Below, one piece after another: positions 10,435 to 54,329 of a stretch of DNA of 54,391 nucleotides. The stretch comes from Yinghuangia soli (lineage in GTDB: Bacteria; Actinomycetota; Actinomycetes; Streptomycetales; Streptomycetaceae): contig NZ_JAKFHA010000027.1 of the NCBI RefSeq assembly GCF_021502675.1, positions 17,955 through 72,345 of the forward strand, given 5' to 3'. The notes beneath the pieces were generated by a model. That model searched no databases and had not been told where the DNA came from. It was given only the letters and a program-made list of their open reading frames with translations. The translations under genes and the position numbers were made by a program. Each line of letters opens with the position of its first letter. Positions within the stretch are counted from its first letter, which is position 1.

Positions 10435-11397
10435 TTGAGTGGTTCGGTACAGGTCGGCCTGGTCGGCCTCGGGCACATCGCGGAGACCCACCTCGAAGTC
10501 CTCGCAGGACTGCCAGACGTCTCCCTGGACTTCACCGTCGATCCGCACCCGGACGGACCGGTCGACTTCCGCGGAGGCACGCCACCGCACTACGGCGGCG
10601 TCGCAGAAGCGCTCGAGGTCCACCAGCCCGACCTGGTCGTGATCGCCACACCCACAGACACCCACGCTGACCTCGCCGAACAAGCGCTCGCCCTATCGTC
10701 CGCTCGCGTGCTGGTCGAGAAGCCTCTTGTCCACGACCTCGCCGCGCTCGACCGGCTGCGGGCGCTGGACGCCAAGGCCGACGTACGCGGCCGCGTGTTC
10801 ACCGCACATCACTTCGCCTTCTCACCCGAAGTGCGATGGGCTGCCCAGCAGCTCGGCGAGCATCCCGAATGGGGACCGGTCACCACGATCACCTCGGCAT
10901 TCCATGACCCGTACATCCTCCGCGGCGAGCAGGCCTTTGCCTCGTACGGATCAAGCTGGATGGACTCCGGGATCAACCAGCTCAGCGTGCTGGCCGGCCT
11001 GGTTGACCTGACGAGCCTGACGTCCGCGACGCAACTCGACGGCGGCGCGAGCGCGTGGTGCACCTTCGCCTTCAAGTCACGTGGCGCGACAGGAACGGCA
11101 AGGCTGCGCACCAGCTGGCTGACCGGCTCCAGCAGCAAGGAGACCGTCATCGCCTTCGGGGAATCCGGTGTGGAGGTATGGATCGACCACACCGCAATGA
11201 CCGGTTTCGCCGCCCGCGGCGAGACGCTCCTGGCCGCGCACACCGACGACGGCCGGACCCCAAGGAAGCACGCCCACTACCGGCCGCTCTACGAGAGCCT
11301 CCTGTCCGACCACCCCGACACCGTGCTCGGCTTCGACGCCGCAGTGACCGTGACACAGCTCCACCACGCAACGCCGCCGGCGTCTGCGGTCGAGTAG
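10435..11397 (+). CDS. Gfo/Idh/MocA-family oxidoreductase (TTG start)
   Basis: This 320-residue protein has an N-terminal Rossmann fold with GLVGLGHIAETH (residues 8-19), the strand DLVVIATPTDTHADLA, and the family signature VEKPLVHD (94-101) whose Lys97 is the usual catalytic lysine. The C-terminal half is the alpha/beta substrate domain. The family oxidises or reduces sugars, inositols, biliverdin and similar compounds with NAD(P). The start is TTG 10435, giving MSGSVQVGLVG, with AGGAG 11 bases upstream; no ATG is available and the frame upstream overlaps the NTPase gene without similarity. It is likely co-transcribed with the STAND NTPase, an odd partner for a sugar dehydrogenase. The substrate cannot be told from sequence. 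Confidence 0.82.
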   Translation: MSGSVQVGLVGLGHIAETHLEVLAGLPDVSLDFTVDPHPDGPVDFRGGTPPHYGGVAEALEVHQPDLVVIATPTDTHADLAEQALALSSARVLVEKPLVHDLAALDRLRALDAKADVRGRVFTAHHFAFSPEVRWAAQQLGEHPEWGPVTTITSAFHDPYILRGEQAFASYGSSWMDSGINQLSVLAGLVDLTSLTSATQLDGGASAWCTFAFKSRGATGTARLRTSWLTGSSSKETVIAFGESGVEVWIDHTAMTGFAARGETLLAAHTDDGRTPRKHAHYRPLYESLLSDHPDTVLGFDAAVTVTQLHHATPPASAVE

Positions 11398-41758: not shown

Positions 41759-42700
41759 TCAGGAAGCCGCCCACTCCTCGTCGCGGCGCACCGCCGCCTC
41801 GTGCACGGCGCCCGGCGGCAGCGCGCCGAGCAGCCGCTCGCGCTGCTCGCGCAGCGCCGCGTCGTGGGTCGCGGCCCGGAACTCCGGGCGCAGGTACAGG
41901 CGCTGGGTGTACGCCCACAGGTTCGGGTAGTCGGGCAGCGCGCGACCGTCGCGCTCGATCGCCGCCTGGTAGCCGATCTCGAAGCGGATCAGCTTCACCC
42001 ACAGCCGGATGTCGGACAGCGTGAGCGCGCTGCCGTGCACGAACTCCGCCTCGCCGAGCAGGGTTTCGTAGCCGTCGAGGGCGTTCGCCGCGGAGCCGGC
42101 GGAGTCTGCGGAGTCCGGCAGGACGCCGCCCGCGCGGCCGTCCGCGGTGATGCGGGCGTCGAACGCGTCGATGTCCGCGCGCAGGGCCTCGGGATACAGA
42201 TCGACGTCGTTCGCGGCCCAGGCGTCGAAGCGGGTGGCCAGGTCCACCGGGATGACCGGGAAGTCGTTGCTGACCACGCGCGAGGTGGTCCGGTCCCACA
42301 GCGTCGGCACCGAGATGTGCCCGTCGTACCCGGGCTCGGTGGCCTCGTACGCATCGCGCAGCAGCGCGAACCCGTTCACCGGGTCGGGGCCGAAGCGCTC
42401 CCGGAACGCCCAGCCGCGGCCGTCCCGCGCCTCGTCGACGTAGGACGCGGTGACCGCTTCGCCGAGCCCCTTGGCCTCGCGGACGATCGCGGCGATCTGC
42501 GCCCACGGGCAGCCGTGCGCCAAGTAGAGGTGGTAGCGCCCGGGTTCGGCCGGGTAGAGGCCGTCCCCCGAAGCGGAGACGCGGTCCTGGAACGGGTAGA
42601 GCGGCCGTTCGACCCCGTCGCGCGGCGACGGCGGCCGCCCGCGGTAGGTGCCGAAGACCTCCTGGTCGACGGGACTGGCAAAGACGGTGATGGTGCTCAT
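41759..42700 (-). CDS. Glutathionyl-hydroquinone-reductase-like GST-fold protein 1
   Basis: The 313-residue protein matches the Xi-class GST / ECM4-YqjG family: thioredoxin-like N-terminal part with catalytic Cys64 in RYHLYLAHGCPWAQ, then GWAFRERFGPDPVNGFALLRDAYEATEPGYDGHISVPTLWD, and a helical C-terminal domain with VDLYPEALRADIDAFDARI and LSDIRLWVKLIRFE. Family members reductively remove glutathione from quinone conjugates through the Cys. Actinomycetes use mycothiol rather than glutathione, so the natural thiol donor may differ. GAGGAG precedes the ATG. The transcript begins with a Cys-containing leader ORF, and a second homologue lies 4 kb away beyond two flavin monooxygenases. Together these suggest organosulfur handling. 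Confidence 0.85.
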   Translation of the reverse strand: MSTITVFASPVDQEVFGTYRGRPPSPRDGVERPLYPFQDRVSASGDGLYPAEPGRYHLYLAHGCPWAQIAAIVREAKGLGEAVTASYVDEARDGRGWAFRERFGPDPVNGFALLRDAYEATEPGYDGHISVPTLWDRTTSRVVSNDFPVIPVDLATRFDAWAANDVDLYPEALRADIDAFDARITADGRAGGVLPDSADSAGSAANALDGYETLLGEAEFVHGSALTLSDIRLWVKLIRFEIGYQAAIERDGRALPDYPNLWAYTQRLYLRPEFRAATHDAALREQRERLLGALPPGAVHEAAVRRDEEWAAS

Positions 42701-42808
42701 GGGACTCCTCGGGCGAAGAGCGCATCCCGATGCGGCGGGTGGCTGCGCGTGCGAGAGGCGCGGTGGCGGATGCGCTCGGGCGCGGCGGAACGGCGGCGGG
42801 AGCGGGGC

Positions 42809-42889
42809 TCAGGCGCGCGGACAGGTGCTGCCGGCCACTCGGCAGAAGTCGATGTGGCGGCAGGACACCAGGCGAAGGTCCGCACTCAC
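42809..42889 (-). CDS. Leaderless Cys-containing leader peptide upstream of GST-like gene 1
   Basis: This 26-residue ORF starts at GTG 42889. The peptide contains SCRHIDFCRVAGSTC, with three Cys and the RHID[FL]xRV core shared with two other short ORFs in this region. There is no ribosome site. A promoter (TTGACA, 18 bases, TAGCGT) ends 7 bases before the GTG, so the mRNA probably starts at the GTG (leaderless), which is common for small actinomycete ORFs. It ends 108 bases before the GST-like gene. Peptides of this R-H-[IV]-D-[LF] kind are known as putative leader peptides ahead of streptomycete sulfur genes. Function is inferred. Confidence 0.75.
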   Translation of the reverse strand: MSADLRLVSCRHIDFCRVAGSTCPRA

Positions 42890-42896
42890 GTGATCG

Positions 42897-42957
42897 ACGC
42901 TACGAAGCCCGGCACGCGGCTGTCAACGTTGACCGAGCCCGGCGCGTCACGTAGGTT
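42897..42957. promoter_or_regulatory. Back-to-back divergent promoters sharing a palindrome
   Basis: GTCAACGTTGAC (42922-42933) is a perfect 12-bp palindrome that contains both -35 boxes. Minus strand: TTGACA, 18 bases, TAGCGT (42897-42902), serving the GST leader. Plus strand: TTGACC (42929-42934), 17 bases, TAGGTT (42952-42957), serving the monooxygenase unit. A regulator bound here would affect both units. Confidence 0.7.
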
Positions 42958-43150
42958 CCGAAGCAGGTCAGCCACGAAATCGGCGTGGTTCATGGGCAGT
43001 TCACAACTCGGCAATAACTGATGAGGCGTCAGGCCGGGAGCGGGAGGACGGGGGAGCGCGATGCCGCACCGGACCCTTGGCGGGGCCGCGGCGGTCCCGG
43101 CTGCCCGGTGTCCCGCGTCCTCCCCGGATGCCGAGGCGACCGCATCCCCG

Positions 43151-43231
43151 ATGCCCGCCGGGCCGGCCCTCTGCGCACGCCTGTACGTCGACCTCGGCCG
43201 CGTCTTCAGCGCGGCGTGTAGTCGCGCCTGA
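43151..43231 (+). CDS. Cys-containing leader peptide upstream of flavin monooxygenase genes
   Basis: The 26-residue ORF has two Cys and the core RLYVDLGRVFSAAC, matching the [HY][IV]D[LF]xRV...C pattern of the neighbouring leaders. An in-frame ATG at 43061 with a stronger ribosome site (GGGGAG, 4 bases upstream) would give a 56-residue form; the shorter one matches the length of the other leaders. It ends 201 bases before the first monooxygenase gene, leaving room for an attenuator structure. I see no T-rich terminator there. Function as a cysteine- or sulfur-sensing leader is inferred. Confidence 0.65.
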   Translation: MPAGPALCARLYVDLGRVFSAACSRA

Positions 43232-43432
43232 CCGAGGCGGTGCGGCCGGGGCCGACACGACCCGGCGGTGCGCTTCCGCGCAGCGGTCAGGCTTCCCGCG
43301 TCCGGCGTCCAGGAGCGCTGCCCACCCCCAGGGGCAGCGGGCACCACGCCGCACGCCGGCACCGCGGGCCCGCGCTTCCTGCGCCGGCCGGCGGAACTCC
43401 GCACGTACCGCCCCCCGTTCGAAGGGACCCCC

Positions 43433-44740
43433 ATGCCCGCCGTGCGCGACCACGTCCACCTTGCCGTCGCCCTCGACGGCGCCGGCCGCCACCCGGCGGC
43501 CTGGCGCGCCGCGGACACCCGGCCGGACCTGGTGTTCTCGGCTGCCTACTGGACCGCGCTGGTGCGCGAGGCGGAGCGCGGAACGCTCGACTTCGTCCGC
43601 ATCGACGACGGACTCGGCCTGCAGTCGCTGCGCGCGGACCGGCTGCGCGGCCGGCTCGACGCGGTGGCGCTGCTCGCCCGCACGGCCCCCGCCACGCACC
43701 GCATCGGACTTGTCCCGGCGGCCACCACCACGCACACCGAGCCGTTCCAGGTCTCCACCGCGCTCGCCACCCTCGACTTCGTCGCGCGCGGCCGGGCAGG
43801 GTGGTGGCCCAAGGTGTCGGCCACTGAGGACGAGACCCGTTTGTTCGGCCGCAAGGCGCTTGCATCGGATGGGGAACTCCTGGACGAGTCGGTCGAGTTC
43901 GTCGACGTGGTGACGAGGCTCTGGGACAGCTGGGAGGACGGCGCGGTGGTCCGGGGCGGGCCGCGCGGCGACTTCGTCGACCGCACCCGGCTGCACCAGG
44001 TCGACTTCGAGGGCACCTACTTCGACGTCCGCGGCCCGGCGGCCATGCCGCGGCCGCCGCAGGGCAGACCCGTCGTGACGATGACCGTGGACAGCGAAGA
44101 GGCTCTGGACGTCGCCGCGCGGGCCGCCGACGTGCTCTACATCGACGTCTCCACGCCCGGCCAGGCGCGGCGCCTGCGGGCCCGCGCGCACCGCATCGCG
44201 GAGGCCGCCGGGCGCGACCCCGAGGACCTGCGGGTGATGGCGGACGTGACCGTGCTGCTGCGGCGTACCGCGGCGCAGGCCGGCCGGGCCCGCCGCGACC
44301 TCGACGCGCTCGATGCGTGCGACGGCCAGGAGGGACCGGACGACACCGGCTTCAGGTCCCGCTCCGGCCTTGCGGCAGGCGCCGCTTCGGCCGTGCGGCG
44401 GCCCGGAGTCCTGCAGTTCACGGGTACCGCGAGCGGGCTCGCCGACCTGGTGGAGTCGTGGACGGCGGCGGGCGCGGTCGACGGCTTCACGGTCCTGCCG
44501 TCCGTGCTGCCCGACGGCCTGACCCGGTTCGTGGAGGCGGTCGTACCGCTCCTGCGCGAACGCGGCCTGTTCCGCACCGCCTACACCGCGGACACATTGC
44601 GCGGGCACCTCGGCCTGGGCCGGCCGCCGAGTCGGTATGCCCGGCCCAAGGCGCCGGCGGAACCTGCCTATCTGAAGCCGCGGTTGCCCGACGTACTTCC
44701 GGAGGGCCTCCGGGCGGCCGGCTTCGCGGGGATTGCATGA
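43433..44740 (+). CDS. NtaA/SnaA/DszA-family FMN-dependent monooxygenase 1
   Basis: The 435-residue protein is a luciferase-like TIM-barrel monooxygenase of the NtaA/SnaA/DszA group. Diagnostic parts are LVFSAAYWTALVREAERGTLDFVRIDDGLGLQ, TAPATHRIGLVPAATTTHTEPFQVSTALATLD, GRAGWWPKVS, EGTYFDVRGPAAMPRPPQGRPVV and the ending RGLFRTAYTADTLRGHLGL. These enzymes use FMNH2 from a separate reductase to oxidise sulfones, sulfonates, nitrilotriacetate or polyketides. GAAGGGA precedes the ATG. It overlaps the next gene by four bases (ATGA). It follows a leader peptide of the sulfur type and is flanked by two GST-like genes, so organosulfur oxidation is the favoured role. The C-terminal 30 residues are a Pro-rich extension. 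No flavin reductase is present here. Confidence 0.87.
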   Translation: MPAVRDHVHLAVALDGAGRHPAAWRAADTRPDLVFSAAYWTALVREAERGTLDFVRIDDGLGLQSLRADRLRGRLDAVALLARTAPATHRIGLVPAATTTHTEPFQVSTALATLDFVARGRAGWWPKVSATEDETRLFGRKALASDGELLDESVEFVDVVTRLWDSWEDGAVVRGGPRGDFVDRTRLHQVDFEGTYFDVRGPAAMPRPPQGRPVVTMTVDSEEALDVAARAADVLYIDVSTPGQARRLRARAHRIAEAAGRDPEDLRVMADVTVLLRRTAAQAGRARRDLDALDACDGQEGPDDTGFRSRSGLAAGAASAVRRPGVLQFTGTASGLADLVESWTAAGAVDGFTVLPSVLPDGLTRFVEAVVPLLRERGLFRTAYTADTLRGHLGLGRPPSRYARPKAPAEPAYLKPRLPDVLPEGLRAAGFAGIA

Positions 44741-45828
44741 GCGGCCGGTCGTCCGATGCGGGCGCAGGCCGCCGTCGGCAGATGCACCTTGCGGTGCAGT
44801 TCCCGGGCGGCTGCGCCGACTTCGCGGCGTACGAGCGCATCGCGCGGACCGCCGAGCGCGGCAAGTTCGACTTCTGCCTGCTGGGCGACGGGGACTTCGC
44901 GGGCGGCGGCGGCCCGGACACGGTCACCGTGCTCTCCGCCCTCGCCGCGGTGACCCACCGGATCGGCTTGGCCGCCACGGCGACCGCCGTCTACAGCGAG
45001 CCGTACGAAATCGCGCGCCGGATCGCCTCCCTCGACCACCTCAGCGCGGGCCGCGCGGCGTGGGACATGGCCACCTCGCCGGATGCGTACGACAGTGCGA
45101 ACTACCGGCGCGGGGACTTCCTTCCGGCCGTCCGGCGCCACGAGCGGGCCGACGAATTCGTGCACACCGTGCGCGCGGTCTGGGACGCATGGGCGCCCGG
45201 CGCGGTGGCCGCCGACCAGGCGGGCGGCGTCTTCGCGGATCCCGGCGGGCTCCGGCCGTTCGCCTTCCACGGCCGGTACTTCTCGGTCTCCGGGCACGCG
45301 ACGCTGCCGCGCAGCCCGCAAGGGAACCCCGTGCTGATCCATGCCGGAGATGCCGACGAGGCCCGCGATTTCGGCGCGGCGCACGCCGACGTCGTGCGCA
45401 CCGCGTGCACCGGACTCGACGAAGCGCGGGCCTTCGCCGCGGACCTGGAGGCCCGCGCGGCGGGGCACGCCCGCGGACCCGGGGACGTCCGGGTCATGCT
45501 CGACGCCGGGTTCGTGCTCGGCGGCAGCGAGGCGGACGCCCGCGGACGCGGACTGCAGGCCGGCCTGCCGGACGCGGACCGTCCCGTGTTCGCCGGCAGC
45601 GCCGCGCACATCGCCGCCCGCATGGACGCCTACGTCCAAGAGCAGGCCTGCGACGGCTTCGTCCTGCAGGCGGCCGACGCGCCGGACGGGTCCGGCTCCG
45701 CGGCCTTGACCGCCTTCGTCGACCAGGTGGTCCCGCTGCTCCGAGACCGCGGGTCGTTCCGCGCGGACTACACCGGGTGGACCCTGCGGGACCACCTCGG
45801 CCTGCCCGTTCCCGCGCCGCTGCCGTGA
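44737..45828 (+). CDS. NtaA/DszA-family FMN-dependent monooxygenase 2
   Basis: The 363-residue protein is a second luciferase-like monooxygenase, shorter than the usual 430-450 residues. It keeps AERGKFDFCLLGDGDF, VTHRIGLAATATAVYSEPYEIARRIASLDHLSAGRAAWDMATS, the Tyr/Asn-rich SANYRRGDFLPAVRRHERADEF, HGRYFSVSGHATLPRSPQGNPVLIHAGDAD and the typical end RGSFRADYTGWTLRDHLGLP. It lacks part of the barrel insertion seen in the first enzyme. The ATG overlaps the upstream stop (ATGA), so the two are made together, perhaps as a heteromer or for successive steps. It converges with the second GST-like gene, whose stop lies 20 bases away. Confidence 0.86.
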   Translation: MSGRSSDAGAGRRRQMHLAVQFPGGCADFAAYERIARTAERGKFDFCLLGDGDFAGGGGPDTVTVLSALAAVTHRIGLAATATAVYSEPYEIARRIASLDHLSAGRAAWDMATSPDAYDSANYRRGDFLPAVRRHERADEFVHTVRAVWDAWAPGAVAADQAGGVFADPGGLRPFAFHGRYFSVSGHATLPRSPQGNPVLIHAGDADEARDFGAAHADVVRTACTGLDEARAFAADLEARAAGHARGPGDVRVMLDAGFVLGGSEADARGRGLQAGLPDADRPVFAGSAAHIAARMDAYVQEQACDGFVLQAADAPDGSGSAALTAFVDQVVPLLRDRGSFRADYTGWTLRDHLGLPVPAPLP

Positions 45829-45848
45829 CCGGCGCGAATTCCCCGTCC

Positions 45849-46850
45849 CTACCCGCACGGTCCGCCCGTGGCGCCCGCGACCGCGCCGAGCGCCGCATCC
45901 GCGGGGACGCCGTCCAACCGCGCCCAGTCCACGATCGGAACCGCGCTGCCGCTTGCCGCGGGGCCGCGACAACTGGTGCGGTGGTGCTGCGCGATGTGGT
46001 CCAGCCGGACGTTGCGCCGGAACGCCGGGTGCTCGTAGAGCCGGGCGAAGTAGCCCCACAGCGCGGGGTGGTCGGCGATCCGGCGGACATCGTCGGCGTG
46101 CAGGTGGCGCCGGTGGACGGCGTCCACGTGCAGCAGCGTGGTCCACAGGTGCACGTCGGCCGCGGTCAGCTCCTCGCCGAGCAGGAAGCCGCCGTACGCC
46201 AGGCGGTGTTCGAGCATGCCCAGGGTGTTCAGGACGGTCCGCAGCGCCTCGTCGTAGCGGGCCCCGGCCCGGGCCCGGCCGGCCTGCTGAGCCGCCTCCC
46301 AGACGTCGTCGTCGAACAGCGCGGAGTACTGCGCGAGTCCGGCCGCGAAGCGGGCCGGGTACAGGTCCGGGCCGGTGCCGGCGAAGGCCGTGGCGAGGTC
46401 GGCCAGGATGTCCTCGGGCCGGTTGTTGACGATGCGGCCGCTCCAGCGGTCCCACAGCACGGGCACCGAGACGGGGCCTTCGTAGTGGTGCTCGGTGGCG
46501 TCGTACGCCTCACGCAGCAGCGCGAACCCGCCGACCGCGTCCGGGCCGTGGCCGTCGCCGTCGCGGAAAGCCCAGCCGCGGCCGTCGCGCACCGGGTCGA
46601 CCGCGGACAGGCCCACCCGGTCGGCGAGGCCGCGCAGGTCGCGGGTGATGGCCACGCGCAGCGAACGCGGGCACGCGAAGCAGACGTACAGGTGGTAGCG
46701 GTTCGGGTCGGCGGTGAAGCCGCTGCCGGGCATGCGGCCGATCCGGCCGCGGAACATGGGGGCCGGCCGACCCAACGTGCGGTGGCGCCCGTGCCGCCGG
46801 AAGTCGACGGGGTCGGCGGAACGGGGCTGCGGGGCGAGGGGCTTGGGCAT
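45849..46850 (-). CDS. Glutathionyl-hydroquinone-reductase-like GST-fold protein 2 (variant active site)
   Basis: The 333-residue protein is related to the product at 41759-42700: RYHLYVCFACPRSLRVAI with candidate catalytic Cys60, GWAFRDGDGHGPDAVGGFALLREAYDATEHHYEGPVSVPVLWD, and the C-terminal VDAVHRRHLHADDVRRIADHPALWGYFARLYEHPAF. The usual CPWA motif is CPRS here, so specificity may have changed. ATG 46850 was chosen for GGAG 7 bases upstream; the open frame further upstream lacks similarity. The transcript starts with its own leader ORF (47000-47107) behind a strong promoter. With homologue 1 it brackets the two monooxygenases, one per transcription unit. Confidence 0.83.
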   Translation of the reverse strand: MPKPLAPQPRSADPVDFRRHGRHRTLGRPAPMFRGRIGRMPGSGFTADPNRYHLYVCFACPRSLRVAITRDLRGLADRVGLSAVDPVRDGRGWAFRDGDGHGPDAVGGFALLREAYDATEHHYEGPVSVPVLWDRWSGRIVNNRPEDILADLATAFAGTGPDLYPARFAAGLAQYSALFDDDVWEAAQQAGRARAGARYDEALRTVLNTLGMLEHRLAYGGFLLGEELTAADVHLWTTLLHVDAVHRRHLHADDVRRIADHPALWGYFARLYEHPAFRRNVRLDHIAQHHRTSCRGPAASGSAVPIVDWARLDGVPADAALGAVAGATGGPCG

Positions 46851-46999
46851 GGCGGAACTCCCTGGAGGCCGGATCGGGCAGGGAACGGGAACGGCGGGCG
46901 GCACGGCACGCGATGCGGCCGCGCGCGGGCGGTCCGGCGCCTTGCGGGCGCGCGGAAGCCCCGCGGACGGCGGCGGGAACGGCCAAGGGCAGCGCGGCT

Positions 47000-48796: not shown

Positions 48797-49636
48797 TCAG
48801 AGGAACGCCTTCGCGTAGTGGTCCAGCGTGGCCAGGACCTCGTCCCTGGGCGCGTGCGGCACGGTGAGCACCACCTGCTCGACCACCCCCAGCTCGCGGT
48901 AGCGGTCCAGCTCGGCCGGGGTGGGCGGGAAGCCGCCGCACGGGATGATGCGCAGCTCCGCGGGGTCCCGGCCGATCTCGGCGCAGGCCCGGCGTATCTG
49001 CGGCAGGCCGTATTCGAGGCTCATGCTGCCCACCGGCAGCCAGCCGTCCGCGTACTCCGCGACGTGCCGGGCCAATACCGGGCCGCCGATGCCGCCGAGC
49101 AGCACCGGCGGCCCGCCCGGCTGCACCGGTTTCGGCCAGCACCAGCTGGGCGCGAACCGGACGTGCTCTCCCTCGTATGCGGCGACCTCCTCGCGCCACA
49201 GCCCGCGCATCGCCAGGACCCGCTCGCGGACCGAGGCCCGGCGCTCCGCCCAGACCACGCCGTGGTCCTCCGCCTCCTCGACGTTCCAGCCGAACCCGAC
49301 CCCGAACTCGACGCGGCCGCCGGACAGCAGGTCGAGGGAGGCGACCGCCTTCGCCGTCACGATCGGTTCGCGCTGGGCCAGCAGGCAGACGCCGGTGCCG
49401 AGCCGCAGCGTGCGGGTGGCGCCGGCCGCGGCGGTCAGCGCGACGAGCGGGTCGAGGGTGTGCCCGTACTCGACCGGGAGCTCGGCGAACATCGGCAGAT
49501 TGCTGCGCCTGCTGGTCGGCAGGTGGGTGTGCTCGGAAACGAAGAGCGAGGCGAATCCGCGCTCTTCGGCGGCCACCGCGATCTCGGTGACCGGAATCGT
49601 GAGGTCGGTCGCGAACATGGTCAGTCCGAATTGCAT
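48797..49636 (-). CDS. F420-dependent LLM-class oxidoreductase (Rv2161c-like)
   Basis: The 279-residue luciferase-like TIM-barrel protein matches the TIGR03619 F420 subfamily: [95 protein letters not shown] and the [27 protein letters not shown] segment. Such enzymes use cofactor F420 to reduce or oxidise small organic substrates. GGAGGG precedes the ATG. It is divergent from the SDR gene that begins the HDO/HAD-ACAD operon 130 bases away and may share its promoter region and pathway. Confidence 0.87.
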
Positions 49637-49766
49637 CGGCCCTCCGGGTGTCCGAATTCCGCCGCATCCTGTCGGCAGCGGTATTCCGCTGTGCGGCGTC
49701 GTACGCCAAGGTTCGGTCGGAACGAATCATGGCCGAAATTCCGAACCGGCGGGAGCGCGGATCAGC

Positions 49767-50528
49767 ATGGGAATATTCGATCTTGACGGGAAGTCGGCTT
49801 TCGTCACCGGCGCCTCGCGCGGCATCGGCCGGGCGGTTGCGCTGGCCTACGCCGCGGCGGGCGCCGACGTGGCATTGGCGGCGCGTTCCGCGGACGCGCT
49901 GGCCGAGGTCGCGGACGAGGTCAAGGCGGCCGGCCGGCGCGCACTGGTGCTGCCCTGCGACGTCACCGACCCGGCCGCGGTGGAGGCCGCGGCCCGGGCC
50001 GCGGTCGAGGGCCTGGGGCGCGTCGACATCCTGGTCAACAACGCCGGAGGGGTGCCCGCGGCAGGGCCCGCGGCGGGCCTGGATGCGGCGGGCTGGGAGG
50101 CCACCTGGCGGCTCAACCTCGACTCCGCGGTCAACGTATGCCGGGCGCTGGCACCGGAGTTGCTGGCCCGGGGCGACGCCTCGGTGATCAACATGACCTC
50201 GGTCGCGGGCATCGTCGGGGTGCCGTTCCTGAGTGCGTACGGTGCCGCCAAGGGCGGCATCGCGGCCTACACCCGCGGGCTCGCCGCGGAGTGGGCGGCG
50301 GCCGGCGTGCGGGTCAACGCGATCTGCCCGGGGCCGGTGTGCACCGACCTGAACCGGCCGTTCTGGGAGCATCCCGCGGTCCGCGAGCAGACCGCCGCGG
50401 TGGTCCCGATGCGCCGCTGGGGGCAGCCGGAGGAGGTGGCCGGGGTCGCGGTCTTCCTGGCCTCGCGGGCCGCCTCGTACATCACCGGCCAGGTGCTCGC
50501 GGTGGACGGCGGGCAGACCTCGGTCTGA
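49767..50528 (+). CDS. SDR-family oxidoreductase heading the HDO/HAD-ACAD group
   Basis: The 253-residue classical SDR has [24 protein letters not shown], the serine region [13 protein letters not shown], the active-site YGAAK and the end [13 protein letters not shown]. All catalytic residues are present, so it should be an NAD(P)-dependent ketoreductase or dehydrogenase of FabG type. The ATG gives [12 protein letters not shown]. The gene is followed by a perfect 10-bp hairpin, then by the HDO-like gene 196 bases on. It may be co-transcribed with read-through, or form its own unit; the shared direction and context suggest one pathway. Confidence 0.87.
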
Positions 50529-50570
50529 CCGCGACCGGGCGACCGCTCCCGGGAAGGAGTACGCGGCATG

Positions 50571-50604
50571 CCGCGCCAGGCTGTCCCGAATAGGCCTGGC
50601 GCGG
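50571..50604 (+). terminator. Hairpin between SDR and HDO-like genes
   Basis: CCGCGCCAGG (50571-50580) pairs perfectly with CCTGGCGCGG (50595-50604), followed by TTT. It may terminate the SDR transcript or attenuate the downstream operon. Confidence 0.6.
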
Positions 50605-50723
50605 TTTCCGTTCGGCTTCCGCAACGTAAACAAACGGAAGTCCGGACGCCGTTTGTCGAGATTGTGTGCGCGAGTCCTGCGCACTCTTTATTGACCGTGC
50701 CAAGCGCTGTTAGAAAGCCCGCC

Positions 50724-52301
50724 ATGGAGCAGGTGACGAAGATCATCGATGACTGGCGTAAGCGGATCGAAGACCACCCTCTGCACGTCTGGTTAGCCGC
50801 GGAGGACGAAATCGAGCCGGAGCAGAAGCTCTGGTTCTCGCTTTACTTCACGAACTTCATCATGTATTTCCGCGAACTGAACATCTACCACATCGCCTAC
50901 AGTTCACCGGCCGGCCTGGACGCCCCGCGGGCCGCGCTGACCGGGCACGCCGACGAGGACATGACCCACTCCCGGCTGTTCATGGCCGACTTCAAGACGC
51001 TCGGCTGGGACGAGCTGCTCGACTGGAAGCCGTCCGAGGTCTTCCACTGGCTCTTCAGCAGCCAGGTCAACGAGCAGCTGCGGCGCCGCACGACCGCGAT
51101 CACGAAGCTCTACATCGAGGCCCAGGACCCGGCCGTGCGCTACGCCGTGGTGGAGGCCATCGAGGCCTGCGGCAACGCGCTCTTCCGGCACACCGCGCGG
51201 CTCGCCGACCGCTACACCGCGAAGACCGGCCGCGAGCTCATCTACTGGGGCCAGTACCACCTCGAGCGCGAGACCGGGCACGCCGTCGAGGACGAGCACG
51301 AGGCCGTGTTCGCCGACATGGAGCTCACCCTCGCGCAGCGCGAGGACGCGGTGCGCCTGGCGGTCCGCGCCTTCGAGCTCATCGAAGAGCAGAACAGCCA
51401 CATGCTGCAGCTCGCCCAGGAGACCCTGTCCCAGGGCGGCTTCGACTTCCGCCGCCGCACGCAGGCCGAACCGCCCGCGCAGGTCGAAGCGGTCGAGCGG
51501 GAGGGCGACTACCAGGCCGGCGCGCTGTGGCCGGAGGGGTACTCGTTCAACTTCTGGCCCACCGACCCGCACCCCACGCAGCAGCCGCTCGTCGAGACGC
51601 TGCGCCGCGAGACGGACAAGGTCGCAGAGTCCGGCGTGCTCGACTTCTTCCGCGTCGACGACCTCGACGAAGGCGAGGCCCGGCTGCGGCTGGCCCTGCT
51701 GTTCATGGCCACCGACACCACCGGCACGCCGACCGTGTACCGGCACATGGTCCCGTACGCGTTCCCGGCCACCCCGGCCGAGCGGGCCGTGAACCGCCTT
51801 GCCGCGCGCTTCGGTTCGCGGTCCAAGATGCTGTACGTCGACTGGCGTTCGCTGGACCTGGACCGGCGCCTGGCCTGGCCGGTCAGCCGCACGCTGGAGT
51901 TCATCTACCTGGACCGCGCCACCGAGACGCACCGCGACCTGCGCGCCGTGGTCACCCACCACATCGACGTCACCACCGACCCGCTGCTGCGCTACTGGAC
52001 CGTCGTGGCGCTCAAGAAGATGACCGCCACGTACGCCGACGCGGTCGGCGCGCTGGCCCGCCGCGTCGAGGAGAAGACCGGCCGGCCGCTGCCGTACCTC
52101 ACCCTCAAGCGCACCCCGCACGACACGGTCATGGAGCCCGACCCGGCCGCGGACGCCGTGCGGTTCGACACCTGGGCGGCCGCACCGGAGACGGTGGACG
52201 CCGCGCAGGCGGCGATCGAGGGCATCGCGTCCTCGATCTTCGTGCGCTACAACCGCATGCTCGACTCGCTGGCGCACCGCGACTACCCCGAGGTCGCCTG
52301 A
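50724..52301 (+). CDS. Heme-oxygenase-like (putative diiron oxidase) protein with internal duplication and TTA codon
   Basis: The 525-residue protein is all-helical. The first half holds metal-ligand-like residues of heme-oxygenase-like diiron oxidases: GHADEDMTHSR (His75, His82), VEAIEACG (Glu144/147) and YHLERETGH (His179-x3-Glu183-x2-His186). The second half repeats the fold: DPAVRY (135-140) to KTGREL (167) matches DPLLRY (419-424) to KTGRPL (451) with identical 32-residue spacing, but its ligand positions are lost (Arg463, Asp467, Met470). HDO enzymes activate oxygen for C-C cleavage, N-oxygenation or alkene formation. Codon 24 is TTA (50793-50795), so bldA control is likely. ATG 50724 begins GC-biased coding; ATG 50568 has a better ribosome site but poor codon use. 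The stop overlaps the next ATG. Substrate unknown. Confidence 0.75.
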   Translation: MEQVTKIIDDWRKRIEDHPLHVWLAAEDEIEPEQKLWFSLYFTNFIMYFRELNIYHIAYSSPAGLDAPRAALTGHADEDMTHSRLFMADFKTLGWDELLDWKPSEVFHWLFSSQVNEQLRRRTTAITKLYIEAQDPAVRYAVVEAIEACGNALFRHTARLADRYTAKTGRELIYWGQYHLERETGHAVEDEHEAVFADMELTLAQREDAVRLAVRAFELIEEQNSHMLQLAQETLSQGGFDFRRRTQAEPPAQVEAVEREGDYQAGALWPEGYSFNFWPTDPHPTQQPLVETLRRETDKVAESGVLDFFRVDDLDEGEARLRLALLFMATDTTGTPTVYRHMVPYAFPATPAERAVNRLAARFGSRSKMLYVDWRSLDLDRRLAWPVSRTLEFIYLDRATETHRDLRAVVTHHIDVTTDPLLRYWTVVALKKMTATYADAVGALARRVEEKTGRPLPYLTLKRTPHDTVMEPDPAADAVRFDTWAAAPETVDAAQAAIEGIASSIFVRYNRMLDSLAHRDYPEVA

Positions 52302-54307
52302 TGCCCGACGCGACCGGGCCGGGCGGGCCGATCAAGGCGGTGGTGTTCGACGTCGGCGGCGTGCTCGCCCACCCGCCGGGTGGGCCGATGGCGCCGCCCA
52401 AGGACTTCTTCGGGCCGTCCGACGCCGACGGCGACCACCCCTGGCACCGCCTCGAACGCGGCGAGATCACCCTCATGGAGCTGTTCCGCGAGGCGATGAG
52501 CGGCAATGCCCCGGGCGGGCTGCAGCTTCCGCCGATGCCGCCGGGGATGCCGATGCCGCCGATGCCGGCGGCCGGCGGTCCGGGCGGTCCGGGCGGTCCC
52601 GGGGGATTCCCGGCGCCGCCGGGCGGGTTCCCGCCGCTGCCCCCCGGCGGTTTGCCCGGGGCGTTCCCGGGCGGCGGTCCGGGGCCCGCGGGCATGCCCG
52701 GCGGGATGCCGCTGCCGCCGCCGTTCACGTTGGACACCACGTACACCGGCCTGGCCGAGAAGCTCGCGGCCGCCGGAGTGCCGCTGGCGCTGTGCACCAA
52801 CGCCGTCGAGGAGTTGGAGCCGCTGTGGTGGGACCTCTACCCGTGGCCGGAGCTTTTCCCGGTGGTGGTCAGGTCGTACGAGGTCGGGGCGCGCAAACCG
52901 AACGCCCTGCCCTACCGCACGGTCCTCGAACTGCTCGGCACCAGCGCCGCGGAGACGCTGTTCGTCGACGACTCCCCGGCGAACATCGCGGCGGCCGCGG
53001 AACTCGGTTTCGCGACCGTGCTCGTGGACGGCCCGGCCGAGGCCGTCGCGGCGCAGGTGTGGGCCGCGCTCGGCATGGCGGCGCCGGCCGTCGAGCTGGT
53101 CGACGAGCCGCTGGACGAAGAAGTGGAGCCGGAGGCCGAGGCGGCTGCACCGGTCGCCGCCACCGAACTGTCCGTCGTGCCGCCCGCTTCTGCGCGCGCC
53201 GGTGAAGTCCTGCTCGCAGTCGCGGAGTTCGCAGCCGGAATCGCTGGGCGCGGCGCCGAGATCGAGGCGGCCGGGCGCATGCCCGAAGACGTCGTCGCCG
53301 GTCTGCGCGGTACCGGGCTGCTCGGTGCGCTCTTCCCCGAAGAGCTCGGCGGACCTGGCATGACGCCGTATCAGATCGTCACTGCGGTGGAGGAATTGGC
53401 GTACGCCGATGCCTCCGTCGCGTGGTGCGCCGCGATCGGCATCGATGCCGGACTGTGCGCGATGCACTGGGACGACGAGCAGGTCCGGGCCCTCTTCCCG
53501 GTGCCCGACCGGCTGGTCGCGGCCGTGCTCCCGCCGCTCGGCCGGGGCCGCCGCGTCGCGGGCGGCTACCGGGTGTCCGGGCGCTGGTCGATGGCCAGCG
53601 GCATCGAGGCCGCCGACCACGTGCTGTGCGGGGTCCTCGCCGAGGACGACGCACCCTCGTGGCGGATCGCCGTGCTCGACGCGTCCGAGGCGCGCGTGCT
53701 CGACACCTGGCACACCACCGGGCTGCGCGGCACCGGCTCGCACGACTTCGAGGTGCACGACGTGTTCGTGCCCCGCACGCACACGTACGAGTTCACCGCG
53801 AAGCCGCTGCGGACCGATCCGCTCTATGCGACCGCCGACCATCTCGTCGCGAAGATGGCCGGGGTGGCGCTCGGCATCGGACGGTCCGCACTGGACGCGG
53901 CGCAGGAACTGCTGCGCGACAAGACCGATGCCATGACGCGGCAGAAGGCCGGCCGCAACCCGCGCGTCCAGGCCGAGTTCGCGCATGCGGAGACCCTGGT
54001 GGGGGCGGCGCGCGCGTACGTCCGCACCACGCTGACGGACAGCTGGACCGAGCTGCAGGCCGGGCGCACCCCGGACCGCGGGCCGGGTGCGCTGGCCCGC
54101 CGGTATGCCTTCCGGGCCTGCCGCGAAGCGGTGCAGACGCTGTACGACCTGTGCGGCTCGGCGGCGGTGTACACCGGACGCACCCCGCTGGACCGCCAGT
54201 TGCGCGACATCACCACGGCGTGCCAGCACATCGCCGTGCAGGACCGGATGCTGGAGACGGTCGGCGACCTGCGGCTCGGCGGGGAACCGTTCTCGCCGTT
54301 CCTCTGA
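52301..54307 (+). CDS. HAD hydrolase - acyl-CoA dehydrogenase-type flavoprotein fusion with Pro/Gly-rich cap insert
   Basis: The 668-residue protein joins two enzymes. Residues 10-260 are a HAD hydrolase: nucleophile Asp17 (VVFDVGGVLA), Thr166 (LCTNA), Lys199 (GARKPN) and Asp223/224 (FVDDSPANI). Its cap is interrupted at about 71-141 by a Pro/Gly/Met-rich insert (MPPGMPMPPMP, GGPGGPGGPGG). After an acidic Ala linker (262-295), residues 297-668 form an acyl-CoA-dehydrogenase-like flavoprotein (LFPEELGGPG, VEELAYADASVAW, TGLRGTGSHDFEVHDVFVP) closest to the group D flavin monooxygenase type. Human ACAD10 also fuses HAD and ACAD domains, with a kinase between. ATG shares its A with the stop of the HDO-like gene, so the two are translationally coupled. 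Reaction unknown. Confidence 0.82.
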   Translation: MPDATGPGGPIKAVVFDVGGVLAHPPGGPMAPPKDFFGPSDADGDHPWHRLERGEITLMELFREAMSGNAPGGLQLPPMPPGMPMPPMPAAGGPGGPGGPGGFPAPPGGFPPLPPGGLPGAFPGGGPGPAGMPGGMPLPPPFTLDTTYTGLAEKLAAAGVPLALCTNAVEELEPLWWDLYPWPELFPVVVRSYEVGARKPNALPYRTVLELLGTSAAETLFVDDSPANIAAAAELGFATVLVDGPAEAVAAQVWAALGMAAPAVELVDEPLDEEVEPEAEAAAPVAATELSVVPPASARAGEVLLAVAEFAAGIAGRGAEIEAAGRMPEDVVAGLRGTGLLGALFPEELGGPGMTPYQIVTAVEELAYADASVAWCAAIGIDAGLCAMHWDDEQVRALFPVPDRLVAAVLPPLGRGRRVAGGYRVSGRWSMASGIEAADHVLCGVLAEDDAPSWRIAVLDASEARVLDTWHTTGLRGTGSHDFEVHDVFVPRTHTYEFTAKPLRTDPLYATADHLVAKMAGVALGIGRSALDAAQELLRDKTDAMTRQKAGRNPRVQAEFAHAETLVGAARAYVRTTLTDSWTELQAGRTPDRGPGALARRYAFRACREAVQTLYDLCGSAAVYTGRTPLDRQLRDITTACQHIAVQDRMLETVGDLRLGGEPFSPFL

Positions 54308-54329
54308 CCGGCCTTCCGCACCGAGGAGC

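Follow-up and report, generated by a model that had tools for sequence, protein, structure and literature searches.

AetD, the nitrile synthase of the aetokthonotoxin pathway (PDB 8JI2-8JI7, 8TWN, 8TWT, and 8TWW), remakes an amino-acid side chain into a nitrile as a single protein. It is a heme-oxygenase-like diiron oxidase (HDO) of one domain with approximately 240 residues, and, according to excerpts of a review, only about a dozen HDOs have been characterized (PMC13108848). In the present study, we analyzed a DNA stretch of 54,391 nucleotides (hereafter, the window) from the 9.7-Mb genome of Yinghuangia soli (contig NZ_JAKFHA010000027.1, positions 17,955 to 72,345; G000:C20:17955-72345). 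The window encodes a tandem HDO protein of 525 aa (50724..52301, + strand), the predicted fold, six iron ligands, and F44/F48/Y167 contacts of which are those of AetD. However, the window HDO has a fused, ligand-free second copy of the domain, its pocket differs from that of AetD at M139 and A142, and the formation of a nitrile from Trp, as by AetD, is only putative. The next gene on the same strand (52301..54307) is an open reading frame for a 668-aa fusion of a haloacid dehalogenase-like (HAD) domain and an acyl-CoA dehydrogenase (ACAD)-fold flavoprotein. In mangotoxin biosynthesis, the HDO MboA has a dedicated redox partner, the flavin/Fe2S2 reductase MboB, as described in the abridged text of PMC13185094. 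An HDO with a dedicated oxidoreductase partner thus appears in both systems; however, the partners in the window are oxygenases, and its HDO has two domains. We favor, with moderate confidence, a small oxidative pathway built around a tandem HDO of the AetD branch, the product of which would be passed to a dedicated monooxygenase.

The HDO protein did not score above the cut-off of any Pfam or NCBIfam family. A match to Pfam HEAT_2 (15 bits against a cut-off of 27.7) and PDB matches to replication factor C (E 0.2) were discarded; chance-level matches aside, AetD was the only solved relative by sequence. AlphaFold2 models of the whole protein (pLDDT 88.4, pTM 0.90) and of its C-terminal half showed the heme-oxygenase-like seven-helix fold, with AetD as the best match, followed by other HDOs. 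For each of the two domains, AetD headed both structure rankings, well ahead of the next family; a fold missing from these lists was never counted as evidence. In AetD, the ligands of Fe1 are H79, H172, and E176, and those of Fe2 are D76, E140, E176, and H179, as stated in excerpts of PMC10654658 (ligands also in PMC11611611). The alignment to AetD placed these residues at D79, H82, E147, H179, E183, and H186, such that the N-terminal domain (residues 1-240; 50724..51443, + strand) has all six members of the 3-His/3-carboxylate set. The predicted structure, with an HDO fold and a complete ligand set, agreed with the original prediction. Its ligand list held for H82, E147, H179, E183, and H186, whereas His75 and Glu144 are not ligand positions and D79 had been left out. 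The AetD counterpart of His75, H72, coordinates neither iron and touched an extra Ni in one AetD crystal (PMC10654658, excerpts). Based on the alignment and models, we assigned the N-terminal domain to the AetD branch of HDOs and concluded that it has every residue of a 3-His/3-carboxylate dimetal site, for which dimetal O2 chemistry is predicted.

One search of genome contigs yielded 17 loci. Five belong to the clade of the window (57-88% identical; Y. seranimata, Wenjunlia, a metagenome-assembled genome [MAG], Nonomuraea, and Actinomadura), and the nearest named genome with the HDO protein was that of Y. seranimata (88%). The other 12 were 26-32% identical and came from two Sorangium, four Polyangium, Acidovorax, a proteobacterial MAG, Yersinia similis, Salmonella arizonae, Salinisphaera, and one Streptomyces. 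The 17 tandem rows compared below are the window and 16 of these loci. The Actinomadura locus (L019) was left out here and in A2, A3, and A4 because of its broken HDO frame and was kept in the neighborhood counts; L022 was left out of A2 only. In the Actinomadura alba draft (L019:10001-11568), the HDO frame ends early, at 11044, and the downstream HAD-P450 gene is open.

AetD Y167 and F48 correspond to Y174 and F49 in the window HDO, and F44 to F45 through the same ungapped stretch (41 to 42, 48 to 49). F45, F49, and Y174 were invariant in all 17 tandem rows. In AetD, F44 clamps the indole ring, the Tyr binds the carboxylate, and the Phe stacks on the substrate. Since the carboxylate-binding Tyr and stacking Phe positions are invariant, a free alpha-amino acid is a likelier substrate than the small acyl chain or amine proposed originally. 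We propose that the N-terminal domain binds a free alpha-amino acid through its amine and carboxylate at Fe1, by analogy with AetD, and uses O2 to oxidize or fragment the side chain. The likeliest substrate would be an aromatic amino acid (Trp, Tyr, Phe, or a derivative). The AetD-type residues at positions 49, 79, and 174 characterize the tandem family and are not dictated by the fold, because six single-domain Streptomyces relatives differ there: position 49 is Tyr and position 79 is Glu in 5/5 readable sequences, and position 174 is Phe in 6/6, with F45 kept in 5/5 readable sequences. In genomes of the Streptomyces family, these single-domain, AetD-like HDOs (L042-L047) group apart, carry Glu, Tyr, and Phe in the positions of AetD D76, F48, and Y167, and perhaps perform another chemistry.

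Several points weigh against an AetD-like reaction on an aromatic amino acid. Five of the six ligands were invariant among the tandem rows; however, H186 was present in 13/17 and is Phe in the four Polyangium proteins, and the full dimetal site is therefore not universal. AetD M139 and A142 are changed to I and C in the window HDO, and AetD S214 was outside the alignment used. The proposed aromatic specificity rests on two Phe and one Tyr, and the metal, substrate, and product of the HDO are all predicted. The protein might instead be an N-oxygenase or C-C lyase acting on a non-aromatic amino acid or amine, in the style of SznF, HrmI, or BesC, with the resemblance to AetD reflecting ancestry only. 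Near-identical HDO ligand sets serve different chemistries, according to excerpts of PMC13108848, and the changed M139 and A142 positions suit this explanation; the invariant Tyr and Phe argue for an amino acid over an amine. We regard such a reaction as possible but unlikely. The four Polyangium proteins (L021, L022, L023, and L028), with Phe at the last metal ligand, may be mononuclear or inactive.

The second, ligand-free copy of the HDO fold was confirmed by the homology between the N- and C-terminal halves (hhalign E 3.9e-42; hmmsearch E-values of the work on the two halves refer to a set of 17 sequences). The C-terminal domain (approximately residues 284-517; 51573..52274, + strand) had the AetD fold when its half was modeled alone. 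None of the six ligand residues was kept there in the window or in four aligned clade members, and the sole acidic residue remaining at these places is an Asp at the E183 position in the window and Y. seranimata (L015). The alignments and models indicate that this domain is a degenerate copy of the N-terminal domain, and it may stand in, as a built-in partner, for the second subunit of the AetD dimer. The C-terminal domains of the 12 rows outside the clade (L020-L031) keep three of the six ligand positions (the equivalents of H82, E147, and H179). An extra His occupies the E183 place in 10 of these 12, which could form a single-metal site.

The co-occurrence of the HDO with a HAD-oxygenase gene was upheld in five of the six clade loci (the window and L015-L019), in which a HAD gene follows the HDO. 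The HAD domain is fused to the ACAD in the window and L015, and to a cytochrome P450 (P450) in L017, L018, and L019. The 21.5 kb of the Wenjunlia locus (L016) contained no HAD match but a P450 two genes from the HDO; the place taken by the HAD gene in relatives, next after the HDO, is occupied there by a LOG-type protein (TIGR00730, PF03641; L016:11610-12326). Outside the clade, a P450 directly adjoins the HDO in L020, L024, L026, L030, and L031. In total, 9/17 loci had a P450 within 2.5 kb of the HDO against 0.29 expected (P 7e-13), and 7/12 against 0.21 expected when near copies were collapsed (P 7e-11); the P450 of L015, at 2.9 kb, is outside this count. The expectation was based on Pfam matches per host genome (17 genomes), in which one gene may count twice, and the statistics assume a 7.4-kb target, typed coordinates, and independence between genomes. 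The local profile used to identify P450s in the loci was itself derived from the P450s adjoining the HDOs, with support from Pfam scans of selected proteins, and part of the gene calls came from a simple in-house gene caller. Acidovorax and MAG Bin_27 each have two P450 matches per genome, one of which adjoins the HDO by coordinates. Pairwise identities of the HDO and P450 were alike (53% and 58% for L024/L031, 42% and 38% for L020/L030). On a tree of 19 rows, which does not include L019, the P450 label needs three changes. This is in keeping with an old P450 association that was lost in Yinghuangia, Polyangium, and the gammaproteobacterial group, with gains as the alternative. The six single-domain relatives had no P450 match within 3 kb in their flanks, which are partial in L043 and L047 at contig ends; in L043, a P450 match lies approximately 6 kb from the HDO. 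When 394 class genomes were examined for a HAD-P450 fusion away from an HDO, with three candidates scored per genome, none among the matches listed reached HAD residues 1-100.

We also considered that the neighbors form no pathway, with the HDO acting alone and the oxygenases being linked by chance or shared regulation. Tandem HDOs without an oxygenase neighbor occur on enterobacterial and Piscirickettsia replicons, and the flanking genes for an SDR-family and an LLM-class oxidoreductase, described below, are shared, within the clade loci, by the window and Y. seranimata alone. However, the P450 enrichment, the presence of another fusion partner in the same place, and the fact that the HDO and HAD genes overlap slightly (by 1 base in the window, 4 bases in L017, 10 in L018, and 4 in L019, the last after the broken HDO frame) speak against this explanation, which we judge to be improbable. 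The pathway that we favor has its own difficulties. Eight of the 17 loci have no P450 within 2.5 kb, and the genomes of Yersinia similis, Salmonella arizonae, and Salinisphaera have no P450 match anywhere; therefore, the HDO can act without a P450. In L017, a separate ACAD (38% identical to that of the window) ends 9 bp before the HDO and a HAD-P450 follows it, and the presence of both argues against simple one-for-one replacement.

In the pathway proposed, the HDO product would go to a dedicated monooxygenase as the next step. In about half of the loci of the family, the candidate partner is a P450. In most of the actinobacterial clade, the oxygenase is joined to a HAD domain whose translation directly follows that of the HDO, and in Yinghuangia a class-D flavin monooxygenase takes its place. 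The occurrence of another kind of oxygenase in the same place in relatives points to an undescribed amino-acid-modifying pathway. Consistent with the original view that no named pathway has this gene set, the arrangement was not described in the titles and abstract starts of the open-access literature searched. In the available portion of the HDO review PMC13108848, 'tandem' is used a single time, with a different meaning, and the terms 'fused', 'two domains', 'bidomain', and 'didomain' are absent.

Both halves of the HAD-ACAD fusion described originally scored above Pfam cut-offs, and Y. seranimata has the same fusion, which confirmed it as real. The ACAD half (approximately residues 305-668; 53213..54304, + strand) was closest to Rv3094c among solved proteins (E 7e-53), followed by three hydroxylases (1e-27 to 1e-19) and HPAH C2 (7e-18), against 3e-14 for two chains named acyl-CoA dehydrogenase type 2 domain protein and 2e-8 or weaker for other dehydrogenases. 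It did not reach the HsaA family NF045629 (136 bits, cut-off 450). Excerpts of PMC9904262 give 12 flavin mononucleotide (FMN) contacts of Rv3094c. Eight of these are identical in the ACAD half, including the proton-donor His643 (H351), and the residues at G113, W115, F136, and F352 differ. Based on the FMN contacts and the His, the ACAD half is more likely to be a flavin monooxygenase than a dehydrogenase, and the nearest solved relatives also support the group D monooxygenase assignment made originally. Thus, it shares the ACAD fold, most flavin contacts, and the proton-donor His with class-D enzymes of the Rv3094c/HsaA/HpaH type. Unlike these enzymes, it is fused behind a HAD domain, and the gate Phe221 of Rv3094c is Leu. 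ACAD10, which has a HAD domain, and ACAD11 also combine the ACAD fold with an extra N-terminal enzyme domain. In contrast to both, the window fusion has no kinase domain, its ACAD is of the monooxygenase branch, and a P450 occupies its place in relatives. Two ACAD relatives (L055 and L056) had no HAD or HDO by local profiles and no relatives of the LLM or SDR of the window in 14-16 kb; a P450 lies approximately 5.6 kb from that of L055. On plasmids, 0/329 records covered 80% of the HAD-ACAD query.

The HAD domain (approximately residues 1-250; 52301..53050, + strand; PF00702, 43.6 bits, cut-off 26.4) has FDVGG (D-x-G) as motif I in all five fusions of the HAD alignment, and the second Asp of DxD is absent. 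HAD phosphatases carry DxD as motif I. The removal of phosphate by this domain, as suggested originally, is therefore doubtful; instead of acting as a phosphatase, the domain may serve for tethering or binding. A low-complexity insert rich in Pro, Gly, and Met lies in its cap region (52508..52723, + strand); the corresponding stretch of L015 has another length and sequence, and that of the P450-type HADs is short. A self-sacrificing HDO of the CADD/PabS kind, or one with a protein- or carrier-bound substrate, might fit a HAD with a short or replaced cap, which would hold a macromolecular partner together with the pseudo-domain, and HDO copies without a HAD or P450 partner do exist. Weighed against the Tyr and Phe positions read above as those of a free alpha-amino acid site, we consider this explanation very unlikely.

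The three open genes on one strand, SDR, HDO, and HAD-ACAD, were confirmed with their coordinates, as was the TGATG overlap, in which one base is common to the HDO stop and the HAD-ACAD start. The SDR gene (49767..50528, + strand) encodes a 253-aa NAD(P)-dependent oxidoreductase (PF13561, E 1.3e-69). Its gap to the HDO is 195 bp, and it is therefore not tightly coupled to the HDO. The gene for the LLM-class oxidoreductase of the F420-dependent subfamily TIGR03619 (48797..49636, - strand; 242 bits, cut-off 166.9) was also part of the conserved block, with DNA 83% identical in the same place in L015. When the window together with L013 was compared with the Y. seranimata locus, DNA matches of at least 100 bp covered 48807-49646, 49768-50533, and 50631-54311 at 81-83%, with a single further match of 110 bp outside these stretches. 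We therefore define the conserved block as LLM, SDR, HDO, and HAD-ACAD. The SDR protein is 85% identical at the same place in L015 and has no close relative in L016-L019, with only a 31% identical SDR approximately 7 kb away in L016; no LLM relative was found at E 1e-8 in L016-L019. Since only two of the six clade loci, the window and L015, have the SDR, and a P450 is the more frequent partner, the SDR, HDO, and HAD-ACAD genes were ruled out as a conserved unit. In L015, 43 bp separate the HDO stop from the called start of the fusion gene. TGATG is present in the L015 DNA as well; however, its ATG does not share the reading frame of the fusion gene. The one-base overlap is therefore not kept in L015 unless an upstream GTG is used, which counts against the favored pathway.

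The LLM and SDR may supply reduced cofactor or finish the product. Being F420-type and beside the cassette, the LLM is a candidate flavin or reductant partner of the ACAD, and such a role is possible. Rv3094c is co-transcribed with Rv3093c (PMC9904262, excerpts). The NCBI LLM F420 family TIGR03841 is named for Rv3093c, and the window LLM belongs to another subfamily, TIGR03619; the parallel with the ACAD and adjoining LLM of the window is suggestive only.

A TTA codon is present at codon 24 of the HDO gene (50793..50795, + strand), as noted originally. On the same contig, two of the 36 called genes in 40 kb have a TTA codon, and one is the HDO gene. Among relatives, L017 has TTA at codon 20, and no TTA occurs in L015, L016, L018, or the 347 readable initial codons of L019. 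Thus, the codon stood and its place was not kept among orthologs; the case for bldA control is weak, and bldA dependence of the HDO gene is possible but not conserved.

Two genome samples were searched for the HDO, with three candidates scored per genome. In the phylum-wide sample, 1/396 genomes matched (its own genome), and in the order-wide sample, 9/391 matched: tandem in its own genome and G277, single-domain in six, and a weak match in G005. Viral contigs scanned with the single HDO protein had no relative. In total, 331 plasmid records matched the HDO (265 Escherichia, 36 Piscirickettsia), and 309 covered 80% of the protein in one place; the best 20 and 60 of the 331 records were viewed, and three E. 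coli or Piscirickettsia regions were opened. HDO matches were found in 265 of 5,426 complete E. coli genomes, with 264 of 269 places on plasmids. The present results describe an HDO branch that combines a conserved site of the AetD type with a dead second domain and a recurrent oxygenase partner, and the chemistry of this branch can be tested directly with defined gene sets. The exchange of P450 and flavin monooxygenase partners on a single scaffold amounts to an unusual natural experiment, and the E. coli plasmid relative is an unnamed gene. More tentatively, and with considerable doubt, we envision a new enzyme class. It would comprise a pseudo-dimeric HDO with a catalytic and a dead copy that fragments an amino acid and hands the product (a nitrile, an aldehyde, or a shortened chain) to a tethered oxygenase; P450 and flavin monooxygenases would be interchangeable on the same HAD scaffold, and a relative of this enzyme is located on plasmids of E. 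coli, close to an iron/manganese transporter.

On two E. coli plasmids, putatively of the ColV kind, a 500-aa tandem HDO annotated as a hypothetical protein lies between sitABCD and sopA (L011:9001-10503 and L057:7001-8503); the first was typed IncF. On a Piscirickettsia salmonis plasmid (L012:8944-10512), a tandem HDO, also annotated as hypothetical, lies among transposase genes. In the window, upstream of the cassette and outside the conserved block, 41759-46904 contains two LLM monooxygenase genes and two glutathione-S-transferase-like genes.

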